Below are positions 7,475 through 64,000 of a stretch of 64,000 nt of DNA, one piece after another. Within the stretch, counting starts at the first letter, position 1; each line of letters starts with the position of its first letter. Location: positions 1-64,000 of IMG/VR virus record IMGVR_UViG_3300044630_002618; one strand, written 5' to 3'. Made by a program: the position numbers and the translations under genes. This stretch comes from a virus. The notes below the pieces were generated by a model. The model was not told where the DNA came from, did no database searches, and saw nothing but the letters and a program-made list of their open reading frames with translations.

Positions 7475-7958
7475 CGTCTTCGTCCTCCTGTTCTCCGTTG
7501 AAATATTCGTCCCATCCATCATCTTCGTCGTCGTCGTCAAAGTCAGGAGGGTCAATTGAGAACATACTAATCACTGAGATCATCTGGTTGAGTGCATCGG
7601 GTGGAATAACTAGTGGAATTTCTCCACATATTTTAATATCTTGGTTATCTAAGAGCATGGTTATAAGTGAGACACCAAACGAAGTGAAGAGGGCGACAGA
7701 AACATCAACCTCTTTTTCGTCAAGGTCATTTTGTAACTGGATGATATGGGACACCCATTCAGAGCACTTAGTTATGTCGTCAAGTAGTCCGAGAGCCTTT
7801 AGGGTAAACCACTTACCCATAACATCTGTGGTTTCTTGTTCCATGACTTCTTCTGAGGGAAGCGAGAAACCAGCCATCTCGGCAATCTCTTGACCGTCTT
7901 GTGGGGACATAGTCAGGAGAAATGTTCTGTGGTTCAGTGGTTCGTAATCTTCGTTCAT
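7467..7958 (-). CDS. Acidic hypothetical protein, 163 aa
   Basis: A soluble protein with a hydrophobic helical core (for example VALFTSFGVSLITMLL at ~90-105) and a very acidic tail of about 25 residues (DDDDEDD ... EQEDEDDE). It is coupled to the polymerase gene by an overlap at 7955-7958. The acidic end could mimic DNA or bind a basic partner such as SSB or a histone-like protein, which is inference only. No family is recognised. Confidence 0.65.
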   Translation of the reverse strand: MNEDYEPLNHRTFLLTMSPQDGQEIAEMAGFSLPSEEVMEQETTDVMGKWFTLKALGLLDDITKCSEWVSHIIQLQNDLDEKEVDVSVALFTSFGVSLITMLLDNQDIKICGEIPLVIPPDALNQMISVISMFSIDPPDFDDDDEDDGWDEYFNGEQEDEDDE

Positions 7959-10054
7959 TTTCCCTTAGCCTCCGACCATGAGTTTGCTGAATGACAGGAT
8001 ACCTTCAATGGGATACCAGCGATAACTCGGTCTTGACCCATGGCTTGAACCATTACTTTTTGTGCTTCTTCTATGTGCTTATTTGGGACTGCTACCACTA
8101 ACTCGTCATGCACCTGTACCAATATCTTGGCATTGAATGGTTTCAGTGCTTCGTGAACATCAATCATAGCGATCTTGCAGATATCAGCCGCGGAACCTTG
8201 AACAATAGCATTGATTGCTTGGCGTTCTGCTCGTGCTCGTAAACCCTCATCACGACTTGTAAGTTCAGGTAGCCGACGACGACGACCCGACAAAGTACTC
8301 ACATAACCGCGTTGTATTGCTTTTACAATCTCAGTGTTCTTCCACGCAGATATTCCACTAAATTGTTTGTAATAGTTATTAATTACTTCTCTTGCTTTTT
8401 TTTCAGTAATGCCTGTAGTGCGAGCAAGTTTCTGTGCACCACCGCCGTACGCTGTCAGGAAGTTAACTCCCTTACCCAACTGTCGTTCCTCGGAAGTTAC
8501 ATCAGCGACTGGTTTGTTTAGGACAAGGGCGGCAGCGCCAGCATGGATGTCCTGCTCTTCAAGGAAGAACTTACTCATATTCTTATCCTTAGAAAACATG
8601 CACATAACCCTTAGTTCAATCTGATCATAGTCAGCCACGAGCAATGTATGACCGGCTGGTGCTACGAACAAACTCCGGATGCTGGAATCTCTTGGAATGT
8701 TTTGAAGATTGGGGTTACTAGAAGACAGGCGACCAGTTGCAGTTCTGTGGAGATGGTATGAGGGGTGAAGGCTATTGTTGACCAACTTTAGAAGAAGGCT
8801 GTCAACATAGGTTGACTTCATCTTCTTTACTTCTTGCCACTCAAGTAGTAATGGGATGAGTGGGTGGGCGTTTTCAATGAAGCGCAATGCTTCTTCGTCA
8901 ACAGATGACGCACCCTTGGCAGTCTGCTTGTGGGACTTTAGACCAAGACCACCATCTGCTTTGCTTTTAAATAAGAACTCTTGCTTACTCTTGTTGCTAT
9001 CGGGATTGAACCCTAAGGGGGTGAACTGGGACATCTCATTTAAGAGATCGCGCATGCGACCATCCAGTTCCCGACCAAGGACAACCATGGCACTTTTTTT
9101 GACAGGAATACCAATGTCTTCCATGTCCATAATGACACGGAGTACAACCATGTCTTGATCAAGGGCGTTCCGTAGACCTTCTTTGTTCTTGATCTTGTTC
9201 CACAGTCGCTTGTAAAGCATCCATGTCCAGCGGACATCTAGGTGGACATATTTGGTAGCCGATGAGAACGCCACGGTATTGATGATCTTGCCGAGTTTGC
9301 CCTCTTTGTAATAGGCGTCGTGCCCGTCATAATTGTGGGCGATTAAATCTGTCAGGCTGTAGCCACGGAGATTCTCATTCACGATGTGTTGCATGAGCAT
9401 CGTGTCCATAAATCCTGACAAAGGTAACTCAACATTTAGATACTTGCGAATAGAGCGGGCGTCAAACTTGACATTGTGACCCACCTTGATGATATTTGGG
9501 TCAGAGAATAAGGGTTCTAATGCTGTAAACACATCAGAACGAGATAGTTGTTCGGGTGGTGCGCTGAATACAGCGGGGATACGGTAACGAATCTTTGCCT
9601 CGGACTCAGTCCCATCCTTTTTTAGTTTGCGGTAGCCAGTAGGGGGAACGGTTGAACCGTCGCCAACTTCTTCGGGGACAATGATCTCACCGCATAAATG
9701 TCCCATTGGTATAGCCCAGGAATGACCATCGGTGGCTATACCAATCCAAAAGACTTCGTTACGCAAGGGATCAAGGGCGATGATACCTCGCCACTTTTCC
9801 ATCAGTCGTTCTTGCGTGGCTTCTCTAACCGCTGGGGAAGTAGTTACCATGTCGGCTAGGTGTTGCTTGAGTTCAGTGTTAAATGCATTCATGGCGTCAG
9901 CATGACGCTCAACTATTCCGCGTGTCTCCACATCAAATGCAAAAGCACCTACGCTTTGCACGATCTTAACGATCTCATGGATTTCTTCAATCGTAGAAAC
10001 AACAAGGGGAGGGGCTGTTAGACCCCTCCCCTCGCTACGAATATCTACGCTCAT
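7955..10054 (-). CDS. polA: DNA polymerase I (family A) with 3'-5' exonuclease domain, 699 aa
   Basis: The N-terminal exonuclease shows FDVETRG (Asp41, Glu43) and VGHNVKFDARS. The polymerase domain has motif A LLVADYDQIELR, motif B with the R-K-F-Y helix (RQLGKGVNFLTAYGG) and motif C VQVHDELV. There is no 5' nuclease domain, as in T7-type and other phage enzymes. At the position equal to E. coli 762 the residue is Phe, which in surveys of virioplankton polymerases is often associated with virulent phages. It would copy the phage genome with the helicase, primase and SSB encoded upstream. Confidence 0.97.
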   Translation of the reverse strand: MSVDIRSEGRGLTAPPLVVSTIEEIHEIVKIVQSVGAFAFDVETRGIVERHADAMNAFNTELKQHLADMVTTSPAVREATQERLMEKWRGIIALDPLRNEVFWIGIATDGHSWAIPMGHLCGEIIVPEEVGDGSTVPPTGYRKLKKDGTESEAKIRYRIPAVFSAPPEQLSRSDVFTALEPLFSDPNIIKVGHNVKFDARSIRKYLNVELPLSGFMDTMLMQHIVNENLRGYSLTDLIAHNYDGHDAYYKEGKLGKIINTVAFSSATKYVHLDVRWTWMLYKRLWNKIKNKEGLRNALDQDMVVLRVIMDMEDIGIPVKKSAMVVLGRELDGRMRDLLNEMSQFTPLGFNPDSNKSKQEFLFKSKADGGLGLKSHKQTAKGASSVDEEALRFIENAHPLIPLLLEWQEVKKMKSTYVDSLLLKLVNNSLHPSYHLHRTATGRLSSSNPNLQNIPRDSSIRSLFVAPAGHTLLVADYDQIELRVMCMFSKDKNMSKFFLEEQDIHAGAAALVLNKPVADVTSEERQLGKGVNFLTAYGGGAQKLARTTGITEKKAREVINNYYKQFSGISAWKNTEIVKAIQRGYVSTLSGRRRRLPELTSRDEGLRARAERQAINAIVQGSAADICKIAMIDVHEALKPFNAKILVQVHDELVVAVPNKHIEEAQKVMVQAMGQDRVIAGIPLKVSCHSANSWSEAKGK

Positions 10055-44057: not shown

Positions 44058-45452
44058 TTAGAACAATGTAAGTTGTCCTCTTTCTTCAGGAGTAGGTGGT
44101 GCTTTGACTTCTGCTACTGGTGACTTACTTGCTTCTTTGGCTGCTTTTTTGGCGTCCTTAGCAAGTTGTTTTTGGGCTGCGTTGTACTCTTCATCTTCGC
44201 CAAGTACATGTCGCCGCTCTTCCACCCATGCAATGGCTTGGGCGGCTCGGGGAGTAATATGCTCATCATCAAAACTAAAATGCTCGGCGGATTGGCGGGT
44301 GGCTTCTTCATTGTAGGCATGCCTAATCTCTTCAGTTTTAACTGACGGATCAAAGGTCTTTGTACCTTTTGCAGGCTGTACAATATTTTGTGCTTCTCTT
44401 GAGGTTGCCCCTGTAGTACCCTGTCGGGCGGCTTCTTTAGCACTTAGGTGATTCATTGCGTAATCTTCAACTGCCTCGTCAGACTTTGATGGATCAAATC
44501 CAGTTTCTTCAGCCGCGGACCATAAATGACTCTGATGAAATGTTCTTGTTCTACCTTTTCCATTGCCTTCTACAAATGTGGGTGCTTGTGCCCTTCTTCG
44601 GAATATTTCATTATTAAAAGCATTTTCTTCTGGACTAGCGAGTTGGATTGCTCGTGAGAAATTACGAGTCTTAGGGACTGCTCCTACTTGATTTACTTCA
44701 TCAAATGTTTTTCCGCGAACAACAGCAACAGCCTTAGTTGCAATCTTACGGCCCGCTGAATTTAAAGTTACTCCAGTAACTTCTCTTGAAAGGTGTCTTT
44801 CATCAAGAGGTACAGGATTATTTTGCGGTATACCGTGCTTGTCTCTAATCGCTTGACTCTCAGCATAACCAAGGTGAGCAACACCTTCATCTGATAAATC
44901 ACCAATGCGTTGTTCCCCTGCGGCAATGTCGGGATTACCCATGTGGGGAACCATCCCAGGTGTAATTTCTACCATACGATCTGGGTTTCCAGCAATACGG
45001 CCCGCCGATTCAGTGGCTATTCTTTCTTGTTTTGGTGTATTCTTGACACTTAGTACACCAGCGGCATCAACGATGCTACCAATGCGTGTGCCAGTTCTGT
45101 TAGCAACATCACGATAGCCAGATTGGTGATCTGTGTACCAATCATAACCTTCAGGAGTATATGAACCCGCGGGTAGACGCCCAATTGCGGCTTGAATGGC
45201 GTTCACACGACTTGCTACAGAATCAGCCATGAGTATTGGATGACCATACGCCTTCATACCAGCATCTGCCATTGAACGATCAATATGTTCTCTGTCTTCA
45301 ACAGGAAAATCTCTATATGATACGGCTTTTTTTGGGACAATATACCCTGGATCAACTAAACTTTCTGTATTGGTAGTATCACGCTTTGGCGTTGCCAGAC
45401 GCTTCTTTGGTGCTGCTGGTGCTGGTGCTGATGTTTCTTTTTTCTTAGCCAT
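44058..45452 (-). CDS. Hypothetical protein ending in QLTLF clamp-binding-like motif, 464 aa
   Basis: A basic Lys/Pro/Ala N-terminus (MAKKKETSAPAPAAPKKR) leads to a mostly disordered and helical body with no enzyme motif. The very end is RGQLTLF, which equals the bacterial beta-sliding-clamp-binding consensus QL(S/D)LF at the usual extreme C-terminus. The start shares bases with the upstream stop (TGATG). It lies between the head genes and terminase. The function is unknown; the C-terminal peptide suggests recruitment of host DnaN. Confidence 0.65.
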   Translation of the reverse strand: MAKKKETSAPAPAAPKKRLATPKRDTTNTESLVDPGYIVPKKAVSYRDFPVEDREHIDRSMADAGMKAYGHPILMADSVASRVNAIQAAIGRLPAGSYTPEGYDWYTDHQSGYRDVANRTGTRIGSIVDAAGVLSVKNTPKQERIATESAGRIAGNPDRMVEITPGMVPHMGNPDIAAGEQRIGDLSDEGVAHLGYAESQAIRDKHGIPQNNPVPLDERHLSREVTGVTLNSAGRKIATKAVAVVRGKTFDEVNQVGAVPKTRNFSRAIQLASPEENAFNNEIFRRRAQAPTFVEGNGKGRTRTFHQSHLWSAAEETGFDPSKSDEAVEDYAMNHLSAKEAARQGTTGATSREAQNIVQPAKGTKTFDPSVKTEEIRHAYNEEATRQSAEHFSFDDEHITPRAAQAIAWVEERRHVLGEDEEYNAAQKQLAKDAKKAAKEASKSPVAEVKAPPTPEERGQLTLF

Positions 45453-45925
45453 CACAGAACCTTAAACTTTCCTGGGGTATACAAAGCATGACCAAACTGA
45501 CCAGCAATATAAGAAGGCTTATTAGACTTATAGCGGTTGTAGGAAGTCACGCCCTTACGGCGCATTTTATTAGAATCAAACTTCTGACCTGGATTAGTGA
45601 TCATAGATTTACCGTACTTACGGCCCTCTAGGTCTAACTTTTCAGACTTGAAGTTTTGCATTGGGTCAATAATGAATTCACCAATACCTGATGCATAACG
45701 GGGCATATTTAATGACCGCTTACCACCCAAGGGGCTAGGCACAAACGGGTTAGAGACCTTGGTGGCAACACCAAAGTTCTCAGCGCGCGCCGTAACTAGT
45801 TCATTACTTTTTTGGACGCGACGAAACATCCCCGCAACTGCCTCATAAGTAGACAATTCCGGAGATGACCCAATCGTGCTACTCGGTACTGGGCCAGTTA
45901 CCGAGAAACCCTCGGCAGTGCCCAT
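45452..45925 (-). CDS. Hypothetical basic protein, 157 aa
   Basis: Mostly basic with Ser/Pro/Gly stretches; the second half contains YGKSMITNPGQKFDSNKMRR then SYNRYKSNKPSYIAGQFGHA. It resembles structural proteins that decorate or sit inside the head, but no motif identifies it. It is coupled to the 464-residue gene. Confidence 0.6.
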   Translation of the reverse strand: MGTAEGFSVTGPVPSSTIGSSPELSTYEAVAGMFRRVQKSNELVTARAENFGVATKVSNPFVPSPLGGKRSLNMPRYASGIGEFIIDPMQNFKSEKLDLEGRKYGKSMITNPGQKFDSNKMRRKGVTSYNRYKSNKPSYIAGQFGHALYTPGKFKVL

Positions 45926-49206: not shown

Positions 49207-50004
49207 TCAGCCGAACATGGCTTTCCATGTCGTCGGACCAACAACGCCATCATAAGTAAGACCCTTAGCCTTCTGCCAGTTACGGACAAGTTCATGGGTC
49301 TTGGCACCAAAGTCACCATCGGGCTTTGCGCCAACGATTGCCTGAACCAACTTGACGGAGTCACCCTTTGAACCCTGCTTAACGGGTGTTCCTGGGTAAG
49401 TAAAAGTAAGTGCGGGTGCGCCTGCAGGAGCGGCGGCTGGTGCTACGGGAGCGGGTGCGCCATTAGGGGTGGCATCACCGAGGCAGTACTGCCAGTGCCA
49501 TGCCTCAAACTCTTTTGACTTTGGGTCTGAACCCTGCAAGTAGAAACCGTATGAGGGTGCATTAGTGCACATCCACTCAAAACACTTGCCACCCATTGAG
49601 GTAAGTTTGCCGTTGACATCATAACCAAGGTCAATTGCTAGCCCCCAACCGTGGTTAGAACCTTTTAGCCCTGTTGGGTCTGGAGCGGCTGAAGGGGCTT
49701 TGCCCTTCTTGAGGTACCAAGTCTTACCGTCATACTTGCGAGTAACGCCAGTACCAGTGTCTGTCGTGACATAGCGATCCATGAACATATTCAACTGACC
49801 TTCAAATGAGCGGTAGTCGCCCACATTTTTCAATTTAAAGCCAGCGGCGAGAGCGGCGTCGTACAACTTATTGAATTGCTCTGCGACTGGTGCGTACATC
49901 TTTCCGCCAGTCTTAACGGAAGCCAAAACGCTTGGTGCTAACTGACCGTTCTTAAACTGCTTAAGTGCGGTAGGCACTACCAGTTTGATGCAGGGGTAAT
50001 TCAT
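49207..50004 (-). CDS. Endolysin: M15 peptidase with peptidoglycan-binding domain, 265 aa
   Basis: Residues ~55-160 show the VanY-type metal site: YRSFEGQ, SNHGWGLAID (S-x-H-x2-G-x-A-x-D) and EAWHWQ. Residues ~200-265 are a peptidoglycan-binding domain 1 (DSVKLVQAIVGAKPDGDFGA and the final DGVVGPTTWKAMFG). It would cleave stem peptides of host wall at lysis. A Pro/Ala linker joins the parts. No signal peptide is visible, so a holin is needed; candidates lie at 59191-59632 and 61576-61821. Confidence 0.92.
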   Translation of the reverse strand: MNYPCIKLVVPTALKQFKNGQLAPSVLASVKTGGKMYAPVAEQFNKLYDAALAAGFKLKNVGDYRSFEGQLNMFMDRYVTTDTGTGVTRKYDGKTWYLKKGKAPSAAPDPTGLKGSNHGWGLAIDLGYDVNGKLTSMGGKCFEWMCTNAPSYGFYLQGSDPKSKEFEAWHWQYCLGDATPNGAPAPVAPAAAPAGAPALTFTYPGTPVKQGSKGDSVKLVQAIVGAKPDGDFGAKTHELVRNWQKAKGLTYDGVVGPTTWKAMFG

Positions 50005-61024: not shown

Positions 61025-61576
61025 TTATATAAAAGATGGACCGTTAATTCCAGTCACTTTTAAGTGTTCCTCCGGATTGTAGATGGTGACATCTGCGTCT
61101 GGACTCCACGCGGCGATACTATCGCGGTTGCCATGATAACCCCAACTTGAGAGTGTGTCAGCAACATTTTCAGTGTTCTTATTAGATTTTGCCCAGTTAT
61201 GGACTGCCTGATGACCCTTACCATAATGGCTCATGTCAAAGTGACCACCGTGGTCATCTAACCATTCTTCAGGATCAGATTTACCATAGTCATGGTAATC
61301 ATTCAGCGCCTGAGTAACTTGACGCTGACTCTCTAGGTGTGGGTCGTCATTAATGTCCCCATAAATACGCAATGCACGAGTTGGCTGTGTCGTGACAACA
61401 TGATCACCCCATGCACGGGCATCAACCTCACGGGTAGTCATGTATGCGCCAGGAATACCTGCGATTACATCATCACCTGAGGGTGATATACCGTGCTGAA
61501 GGATGCTCTTTACATTGTGTCCGCTGGTTCCATGGAATAGCGTTTGGTCTTTATTAATGTACTCGTGAGCAGGCAT
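61025..61576 (-). CDS. ADP-ribosyltransferase-like protein, 183 aa
   Basis: The opening TLFHGTSGHNVKSILQHGIS has the H-G-T-S NAD-pocket motif (His15) with an amphipathic helix and GIS-P; then IAGIPGAYMTTRE (Tyr45) and AWGDHVV; the last third has DADVTIYNPEEHL that could supply the acidic residue. This order fits H-Y-(E) type ART/PARP-fold enzymes such as Arr or KptA-like proteins. Possible targets are host proteins, antibiotics or RNA 2'-phosphates. Activity is inferred. Confidence 0.6.
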   Translation of the reverse strand: MPAHEYINKDQTLFHGTSGHNVKSILQHGISPSGDDVIAGIPGAYMTTREVDARAWGDHVVTTQPTRALRIYGDINDDPHLESQRQVTQALNDYHDYGKSDPEEWLDDHGGHFDMSHYGKGHQAVHNWAKSNKNTENVADTLSSWGYHGNRDSIAAWSPDADVTIYNPEEHLKVTGINGPSFI

Positions 61577-61821
61577 TACTCCGTCTTTTCAATTTTGTCA
61601 AACACTGAGTTGATCTCTCCAGCGTCTAACTTACCATCATCAATGTATGCCCGCGCAAGTCCTTCAATAACTGTGGACATACCACCGATACCAGCCATGA
61701 GGCAGGCTTTCCATAATGGTACACCTGCGATAGCGCCCGCTCCAACCACACCAAGTGCTGAGGCGGCAAATACTGCCAGAATCCGCATGCTGATGGCTTT
61801 AATGTTTGTAATATCGTTCAT
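61576..61821 (-). CDS. Actinophage-type holin/membrane protein, 81 aa
   Basis: Two helices (ISMRILAVFAASALGVVGAG and LWKACLMAGIGGMSTVIEGL) are followed by ARAYIDDGKLDAGEINSVFD, which closely resembles holin-type proteins in actinophages, where the DGKLxxxEIN tail is conserved. It is coupled to the ART-like gene (TAATG). Holin candidate number two in this window. Confidence 0.7.
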   Translation of the reverse strand: MNDITNIKAISMRILAVFAASALGVVGAGAIAGVPLWKACLMAGIGGMSTVIEGLARAYIDDGKLDAGEINSVFDKIEKTE

Positions 61822-62501
61822 TATTGGTCCTCTCCAAACAATGATTGCTGTCCCTCAATCGGTTGACCGCGCTTAGTCTTAGGCGCTTTCTCTTCCTTAC
61901 CGCGTCGTACACGACCCACCAATGTGTTACGCGCCTCACGAACAACATCGGGGTGAATTGCTTCTACCCCTTCGTTTCCGTCATACTCGTGCATGTAGTT
62001 GCTAAAAAGAGGCATGACTCGCCCTGGTGGTACCGTTGCTCGCTTTGGCACATCGCGTTTGTCAACAACACCAAACTTTGCAAGATGGCGGACAACTCTG
62101 TGGCTGTCCCGTGTCAGAGAATGGTCAGGGATTAACGGCAAACCAGCCTCAGTGGCATCCTGGTGGGCAAGAGCCATGAGACTCATTGCCGTGGTGTTAT
62201 TACCACCCATAGTTCCAGCCATCATGGACAATTTACGGTGTGCTGGTTTACCATAGTTAGCGAATAGACGACCTTGACGGACAGTCTCTGCATTTCTATT
62301 TTTATTGTAATCCTTGGGGTAGTAAATTTTGTCTGTTGATTCTTCTTTAGTCCACTGGGTGTCATCGTGGTGTTCTACTTGAACTAACCCCAAATCTCGC
62401 TTACTATGTGGGTCAAACGCAAAATAGGTAGTTTTTGCGGGTGAACGCCTACCACCTGAATCTTGGGCTGGTGTATGGAATCTACGGTATTCAATCGGCA
62501 T
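61821..62501 (-). CDS. Hypothetical protein with QQSLF C-terminal motif, 226 aa
   Basis: The N-terminal third is beta-rich (MPIEYRRFHTPAQDSGG, TTYFAFDPHSKRDLGLVQVE), and the middle, TTAMSLMALAHQDATEAGLP then LIPDHSLTRDSHRVVRHLAK, matches the same region of the protein at 63307 (TSAMNLIGIANNASTEAIGK, VVPDKNLSAHSGALVDRLHA). The two are paralogous. The end EGQQSLFGEDQ looks like a sliding-clamp-binding pentapeptide. No enzyme motif. Confidence 0.65.
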   Translation of the reverse strand: MPIEYRRFHTPAQDSGGRRSPAKTTYFAFDPHSKRDLGLVQVEHHDDTQWTKEESTDKIYYPKDYNKNRNAETVRQGRLFANYGKPAHRKLSMMAGTMGGNNTTAMSLMALAHQDATEAGLPLIPDHSLTRDSHRVVRHLAKFGVVDKRDVPKRATVPPGRVMPLFSNYMHEYDGNEGVEAIHPDVVREARNTLVGRVRRGKEEKAPKTKRGQPIEGQQSLFGEDQ

Positions 62502-62531: not shown

Positions 62532-63290
62532 CTATTTTTTAAGGATTACCCAAAACTCAAATGTATGCGGTGTAGTTGGGTACATTGTCTCAATAGAAAA
62601 GTTAATTAATCCAAGATCGCGCAAATCATGAATAATGTCGGTAAAACTTTCTGGAGTAAAATACCACGCATGGTCGTTACGGAGTTCACCGTTTAAAGCC
62701 TCATATTCTTCCATTGCCTGCTTTAAGCGTTCAATACGACCTACACCAGGAAAAATAGGATTATCAGTAAATAACCCATGGTTACCAGTCCAATGTGACC
62801 CAGGATCGTTGTGAGTCATGTATAGGCGGGATTCCAGCAGGGATGACGGTGAATGCCATTTACGCTTCTCTAGGTGGGCAGAAAGGATATCAGTAATGCG
62901 AGACTGATTCATAAAGTGATCAAAGCAGTAGCGATAGTCGGGGACTAATGCAAAGTACCTACCGCCGTCATTAAGTAACTTTTCTACCTGCTGTAGGTGA
63001 CTAACGAAGTCAGGCTGGTGCTCAATCACATGACTACTCAAGACGCTATCAAATGTCTCGTTTACAACCGATAAATCAGTTGGTTCAGCGACCCAATGAA
63101 TGTGGGGGATACCCTGCGTAGTAATACCCACCAACCCAGCCTGTTCATGTAACTCTTCTGTAGAGTACACATCCACATACTTGACATGTGCTCCATGTAA
63201 CAGCGGGCTGTTGAATGGGCCAATCTCCAAAGCGCTTTGTTGTGGGACTAGTGCGGCGAATTCACCGCGGTGAGTAACTTGTTGTGTCAT
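62532..63290 (-). CDS. SAM-dependent class I methyltransferase, 252 aa
   Basis: LEIGPFNSPLLHGAHVKYVD at ~19-38 is motif I (E/DxGxG-like, here EIGPF), then FDSVLSSHVIEHQPDFVSHL is the class I acidic-pocket region and LNDGGRYFALVPDYRYCFDH the motif III/ post-region. The pattern fits the methyltransferase type 11 family of small-molecule or sugar methylases, not DNA methylases, so it may modify a fibre sugar or a host metabolite. I use the ATG (MTQQ) inside the frame, since no ribosome site is visible upstream. Confidence 0.75.
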   Translation of the reverse strand: MTQQVTHRGEFAALVPQQSALEIGPFNSPLLHGAHVKYVDVYSTEELHEQAGLVGITTQGIPHIHWVAEPTDLSVVNETFDSVLSSHVIEHQPDFVSHLQQVEKLLNDGGRYFALVPDYRYCFDHFMNQSRITDILSAHLEKRKWHSPSSLLESRLYMTHNDPGSHWTGNHGLFTDNPIFPGVGRIERLKQAMEEYEALNGELRNDHAWYFTPESFTDIIHDLRDLGLINFSIETMYPTTPHTFEFWVILKK

Positions 63291-63306
63291 ACACAAACAA
63301 TAGCAG

Positions 63307-64000
63307 TTATTCGTCCCACAGGCTCAGTTGTGTATGTTGTTTACCCTTTTTAGAACTTCCGAGTAGGTCTCGTATACGGGTACGAGCGGCGGGTACTCGG
63401 GAAGATAAATCCTCTAAAGCATCCGATCCATGTGTATAAGCACCCATATGTCTATTAGCCAATACTGATCCACTGTTCCAAAATGTGTGACTATTCATCA
63501 CATCTCCTGCGGTTCTACCTTTTGGCATATCCTCAGAAGGAATATGACCCTCTGCGTGTAAACGGTCAACTAGGGCACCGCTATGGGCAGACAGGTTTTT
63601 ATCTGGTACCACATTTTTACCAATAGCCTCAGTAGAAGCATTATTAGCAATACCAATTAAATTCATAGCAGAAGTCTTACCAGCAAGGCTGTTCTCTGAA
63701 TACAGTCCAGTTACTACTCTTTTTGCAGGAACATTCCTGTGACCAAACATAACTAACTGCTCACCAGGCTCTGCATAACGAGTGTAAGGAGTGATATCCA
63801 AATTACTTTCATTAACTGGAGTGTCCGTATGCGTCATTTCATCATCCACCACAGGTTTTCCTGTGTGGAAGTTGCTTTCTTGGGTGGCACTAACCTCTGG
63901 ATGATGTTGTACAACTAATCTTGAGATAGCATCACCATCTTTATTGTGTGCTAAGTACTCCAAATATGCATCATCAGGATTACTTTCTTTATCTGATACA
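63307..64000 (-). CDS. Hypothetical protein with QLSLW C-terminal motif, partial at right edge
   Basis: The frame runs off the right edge of the window with no in-frame stop, so the N-terminus is missing; a TTG at 63963 is unlikely to be the true start. The part seen holds EPGEQLVMFGHRNVPAKR and the paralogous TSAMNLIGIANNASTEAIGK and VVPDKNLSAHSGALVDRLHA. The end GKQHTQLSLWDE contains QLSLW, close to the clamp-binding consensus QL(S/D)LF. Function unknown. Confidence 0.65.
   Translation of the reverse strand, partial: VSDKESNPDDAYLEYLAHNKDGDAISRLVVQHHPEVSATQESNFHTGKPVVDDEMTHTDTPVNESNLDITPYTRYAEPGEQLVMFGHRNVPAKRVVTGLYSENSLAGKTSAMNLIGIANNASTEAIGKNVVPDKNLSAHSGALVDRLHAEGHIPSEDMPKGRTAGDVMNSHTFWNSGSVLANRHMGAYTHGSDALEDLSSRVPAARTRIRDLLGSSKKGKQHTQLSLWDE

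Follow-up and report, generated by a model that had tools for sequence, protein, structure and literature searches.

Bacterial partners of the sliding clamp bind it through short peptides of the form Q-aliphatic-x-[LM]-[FL], some of them C-terminal, and these motifs are mostly flanked by negative charge or a free carboxyl group (PMC11139829). Pol IV, Pol II, ImuB and IS transposases have a QLxLF-type peptide on a flexible tail, often at the C-terminus or close to it. In mycobacteria the ImuB version, QLPLWG, is indispensable to mutasome function and to clamp foci (PMC10421592), and IS transposases exploit the host clamp through such C-terminal motifs (PMC4549789). In E. coli Pol III alpha, tryptophan at position 5 of the motif lowered binding (PMC11139829). 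Among phage proteins, the C-terminal clamp epitopes of T4 gp55 and gp33 are hydrophobic and acidic, that of gp55 sitting on a flexible linker (PMC2988020), and Twort gp168 binds the DNA channel of the clamp, not the motif pocket (PMC11139829).

Here we describe three phage proteins whose tails resemble those of the polymerases and transposases, although their bodies are unrelated to either and one of the tails reads QQSLF. With T4 gp55 and gp33 they share a C-terminal hydrophobic-acidic epitope on a non-polymerase phage protein; T4, however, has its own PCNA-like clamp, whereas here neither a phage clamp nor a transcription domain was found. The likeness to Twort gp168 lies in having the host clamp as target, which in the present case is predicted.

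Three C-terminal motifs in a contractile-tail phage

The window, that is, the whole 64,000-nt stretch analysed, corresponds to bases 1-64000 of a 91,403-bp record, and coordinates below refer to it unless the record is named. The phage carries contractile-tail phage genes, including those for a large terminase, portal, major head protein, tail sheath, family A DNA polymerase and DnaB-like helicase; a tRNA search of the record found none. The nearest named relatives of its capsid protein are those of the Streptomyces phages BRock and LuckySocke (about 58% identity), and an actinobacterial host is therefore likely. The features discussed are as follows.

44058..45455, minus strand: orphan protein, 465 aa, with a disordered tail, between the terminase and portal genes; start GTG at 45455 or ATG at 45452, the latter overlapping the stop of the preceding gene
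44061..44075, minus strand: its C-terminal motif QLTLF, the end of PTPEERGQLTLF, identical except T/S in all homologues
61821..62501, minus strand: distant tandem-family member, 226 aa, GNAT-like
61836..61850, minus strand: its C-terminal QQSLF, followed by GEDQ; the codons hold GGAGAGGA, ahead of the overlapping next start
62262..62276, minus strand: its internal QGRLF, which aligns with the QLVMF of the paralogues
63307..64000, minus strand: GNAT-like member, 243 aa, last of a four-gene tandem array; the ORF starts outside the window, at record position 64038
63316..63330, minus strand: its C-terminal QLSLW, followed by DE; QMSLWDD or QLSLWDD in relatives
63745..63759, minus strand: its internal QLVMF, in a low-confidence loop
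46379..47953, minus strand (context): large terminase (phrog_2, E 1.7e-26)
7955..10054, minus strand (context): family A DNA polymerase without a clamp motif (PF00476, E 8e-111)
62532..63296, minus strand (context): SAM-dependent methyltransferase between two tandem-family members (PF13489, E 7.7e-7)
61025..61576, minus strand (context): 183-aa protein with a KptA/PARP-like N-terminus (sub-threshold PF00644, E 0.0032, and PF01885, E 0.036)

The C-termini given in the original prediction (QLTLF for 44058, QQSLFGEDQ for 61821 and QLSLWDE for 63307) were all read back from the ORFs, as was the second, internal QLVMF of the 63307 protein, which occurs as GEQLVMFG. In each of the three proteins the terminal motif lies no more than nine residues from the end. 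QLTLF fits Q-aliphatic-x-[LM]-[FL] fully; QLSLW fits the consensus with tryptophan in last place and so resembles the QLPLWG of ImuB; QQSLF departs from the strict motif, with glutamine instead of an aliphatic residue at position 2.

These are the only ORFs of the record with Q..[LM][FW] within the last 12 residues: 3 of 133 predicted ORFs, a total that is approximate because ORFs were chosen by greedy prediction, against 0.19 expected from composition. Only 2 of 3000 shuffles reached three motif-bearing C-termini, and the stricter pattern Q[LM]x[LM][FW] was seen twice against an expectation of 0.0095. In LuckySocke, the nearest named relative examined whole, none of 172 ORFs carries the motif. 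The earlier remark that no clamp gene was visible extends to the entire record, in which a PF02767 profile search for a DnaN-like clamp gave no match while positive controls did; a phage-encoded clamp was accordingly rejected as an explanation.

Conservation of the tails in two unrelated families

Homologues of the 44058 protein at 93%, about 60% and about 60% identity end in QLSLF or QLTLF. Across six aligned members of this family, mean pairwise identity is 0.27 in the linker (residues 436-453) and 0.92 in the last twelve residues (454-465, PTPEE[RK]GQL[ST]LF), where nothing varies but R/K and, in the free third position of the motif, T/S. Because the linker has diverged while the last 12 residues are kept, the tail looks like a short linear motif under selection. 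The rest of the protein offered few clues: Pfam/NCBIfam searches gave no match, and the AlphaFold model of the family was unusable (pLDDT 37). Assignment to phrog_3842 was rejected, since the weak match of residues 372-415 (E 0.0063; best relative 3.1e-4) covers the last ~35 of 206 profile positions, is found in two of six members and is not significant over the family; looking for phrog_3842 in named relatives gained nothing. A resemblance to a DUF7178-type phage protein was likewise dropped, as Pfam at E 10 gave no support.

The other two proteins are paralogues, as had been anticipated for at least two of the three (28% identity over 152 aa, E 6e-8). Three more copies lie directly upstream of 63307 (record 64035-66474, minus strand; L022:6036-8475), and the 61821 protein is a fifth, distant member. 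The original prediction had suggested a possible single undescribed clamp-targeting family; instead, two unrelated families bear the tail, the 44058 protein having no visible relation to the tandem family.

Relatives of the 63307 protein at 66%, 57% and 38% identity end in QMSLWDD, QLSLWDD and QLSLWDD, respectively, and QQSLFGEDQ is kept in all relatives of 61821, which at 89-92% identity are too alike for a strong test. The motif was thus retained in every relative found, as its proposed function would demand, the relatives being few and all of one phage lineage. Conservation of the motif beyond that of its surroundings is clear in the 44058 and 63307 families.

The three outside copies end in EQLQLEGFE, encoded by GAGGGNTTTGAATGA. 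Their QLQLEGFE does not fit Q-aliphatic-x-[LM]-[FL], and the EQLQLEGFE codons also write the next gene's ribosome-binding site and ATGA stop/start overlap; at least the EGFE part therefore has a second reason for conservation, and these doubly constrained tails were not counted as clamp motifs. The last array copy has no overlapping next gene and ends in QLSLWD[DE] or QMSLWDD in every lineage seen. In one relative (G003), the QLSLWDD tail sits on the body of the neighbouring, QLQLEGFE-type paralogue, so that the tail is modular and swapped between bodies.

All members of the tandem family also carry an internal QxxΦF (QLVMF, QMVMF, QMAMF, QLVLF or QLAMF, and QGRLF in the 61821 group), whose Q and F are invariant in 16/16 sequences, while the preceding residues 66-98 have a mean identity of 0.18. 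It falls in a loop with AlphaFold pLDDT about 50 and is compatible with a second docking motif.

The fold of the family was modelled from 16 sequences (mean pLDDT 72, pTM 0.69) on the paralogue neighbouring 63307 and not on 63307 itself (model m5a383b45124c); in this model, pLDDT falls below 50 over residues 236-250, which are disordered. The leading PDB matches in Foldseek were GNAT acetyltransferases (best E 0.0098, probability 0.96, target TM 0.51), none of them below E 0.001, and the best BFVD match was an unnamed phage protein (E 1.2e-5). By eye, the acetyl-CoA motif [QR]-x-x-G-x-[GA] is not preserved in the alignments: the stretch taken as its equivalent reads SLAGKTAAM and similar, with Gly alone kept, and GGNNTTAM in the 61821 group. 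Catalysis by the family is therefore doubtful. The GNAT superfamily includes the Eco1/ESCO cohesin acetyltransferases, and Eco1 is an acetyltransferase that binds the sliding clamp PCNA directly (PMC7571713). By the weak match given above, the tandem family may have a fold of this kind, but the clamp and the type of motif differ, in addition to the missing acetyl-CoA signature.

Searches for wider relatives returned little. Among GenBank phages, megablast and tblastn up to E 10 gave no homologues and spurious 30-residue matches alone; homologues were not found in GTDB genomes; and Pfam/NCBIfam searches found no family for the window's tail proteins. Weak sequence matches in the PDB, to a helicase and to MecI, were judged to be chance.

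The same tail in other viral contigs

Two codon-restricted pattern scans for GQLxLF followed by a stop, run over 2.9 million viral contigs with some codon choices sampled, returned 17 distinct ORFs of at least 100 aa outside this lineage. Eleven of the 17 are DNA methyltransferases (ten N6, one C5); the remainder comprise one PcfK-like protein, three without assignment and two that are Mor-like in look, one lying below the curated cut-off and the other placed by resemblance only. The methyltransferase loci L057, L058, L064, L070, L073, L074, L078, L079, L101 and L115 end in GQL[ST]LF or GQLCLF. At least seven of the tail-bearing methyltransferases match phrog_5696 and are not independent events. 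That phrog is annotated as 'unknown function', and many tail-bearing methyltransferases belong there.

The phage N6 and C5 enzymes thus share the GQL[ST]LF hexapeptide with the 44058 protein, several of them on proline-, alanine- or charge-rich linkers; they differ in having a catalytic methyltransferase domain, whereas none was found in the window's three proteins. The GQLxLF tail is concentrated on DNA-acting enzymes, and its presence on these methyltransferases suggests that clamp docking is common among their kind in phages. Since two unrelated families and the methyltransferases share it, the C-terminal tail is a portable module. A search of the open-access literature yielded no description of such a tail on a phage methyltransferase or on any other protein of a phage. 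A scan for QLSLWD[DE/N] tails returned this lineage and a single unrelated protein of 171 aa (L089:5103-5615, minus strand), which comes from an unrelated viral contig, has no Pfam match and ends in PQQLSLWDD like the tandem family.

Proposed docking on the host clamp and its alternatives

Clamp binding is the best reading of the tails, because the motif is kept in homologues. We lean modestly towards the view that the C-terminal peptides are short linear motifs docking two unrelated kinds of phage protein on host DnaN. The orphan beside the terminase and the GNAT-like tandem family would grip the host sliding clamp by their tails, and, once tethered to it, would work on DNA that has just been replicated, as would the phage DNA methyltransferases with the same tail. 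The conservation of the motif, its disordered setting and the lack of a phage clamp gene in the record are observed; the binding to DnaN, the recruitment to DNA and any enzymatic role of the GNAT-like or 44058 proteins are what we infer.

Several observations count against docking. The phage encodes a family A polymerase of its own, in which neither the penta- nor the hexapeptide form of the clamp motif is present; its helicase has none; and the only motif-like stretch in the terminase is a degenerate internal QLVMKL. Host clamps may for these reasons have no part in phage replication. The tryptophan at position 5 of QLSLW, the glutamine at position 2 of QQSLF and the three non-canonical QLQLEGFE ends also weigh against it.

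The tails could have been kept for some other reason, such as virion-assembly contacts or a fold-terminal strand, with the internal QLVMF forming part of the fold core. The late-gene neighbourhood would suit this, there are few diverged lineages besides the window's own, and part of QLQLEGFE is imposed by the ribosome-binding site and start codon that overlap it. We nonetheless regard it as unlikely, given that two unrelated families converged on one pattern at one place, that the variation obeys clamp-motif rules, and that the internal motif lies in a low-confidence loop with unconserved surroundings.

Alternatively, the tails might capture the host clamp and block or take over the host replisome through competition with the host's polymerase at the pocket of DnaN; a family copy that has two motifs might fill both pockets of the dimer. 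An internal and a terminal motif on one protein, the multicopy array, and a phage polymerase and helicase without the motif, so that host replication would be hit selectively, all agree with such capture, which we nevertheless hold to be quite unlikely: the genes lie among those for terminase, portal, capsid and tail, a late-type location, and host shut-off is usually early. Phage clamp inhibition has a precedent in Twort gp168 (PMC11139829), although that protein binds the DNA channel instead of the motif pocket.

A T4-like coupling of late transcription to the clamp, in which the tails would attach a transcription factor to clamps in the manner of gp55 and gp33 with gp45, would suit QLSLWDE and QQSLFGEDQ, which are hydrophobic and then acidic, like the gp55/gp33 epitopes; but searches of the proteins turned up no domain that is sigma-like or binds RNA polymerase, and the GNAT-like model suggests none, which makes this reading very unlikely. 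Chance resemblance without function was rejected as scarcely credible, for although pentapeptides are short, three were seen against 0.19 expected and they are kept across diverged homologues.

Returning to docking, a more elaborate and, as a whole, doubtful proposal joins these strands: the lineage would have evolved a GNAT-like tandem family, some members with two clamp motifs, and an unrelated terminase neighbour with the same tail, as a set docked on the host clamp like PCNA-bound Eco1 and marking or modifying new phage DNA or bridging clamps, the last copy of the array alone keeping a canonical terminal motif, its codons being free of any overlapping gene downstream. If docking holds, phages, like transposases, give orphan proteins other than polymerases the tag by which host proteins dock on the clamp. 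In a phage, a GNAT-like family docked on the clamp would be a novelty; the two orphan protein families are new, with a motif of known kind. The last few residues could also hint at DNA-related roles for uncharacterised phage proteins, because most database proteins with the same tail are DNA methyltransferases.

Some neighbouring genes merit separate mention. The 61025-61576 gene (minus strand) adjoins the clamp-tail genes, and the N-terminus of its product resembles KptA/PARP ADP-ribosyl enzymes: LFHGTSGHNVKSILQHGI. At the site of the 62532-63296 methyltransferase, four relatives (L009, L017, L018 and L020) have another ORF, of 215 aa. The product of 49207-50004 (minus strand) combines a VanY-type peptidase with a peptidoglycan-binding domain and is a probable endolysin; the QLNMF inside it is probably due to chance. 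The phage also encodes a pyrimidine dimer DNA glycosylase at record positions 84600-85022, plus strand (L023:9600-10019; PF03013, E 1.4e-23).
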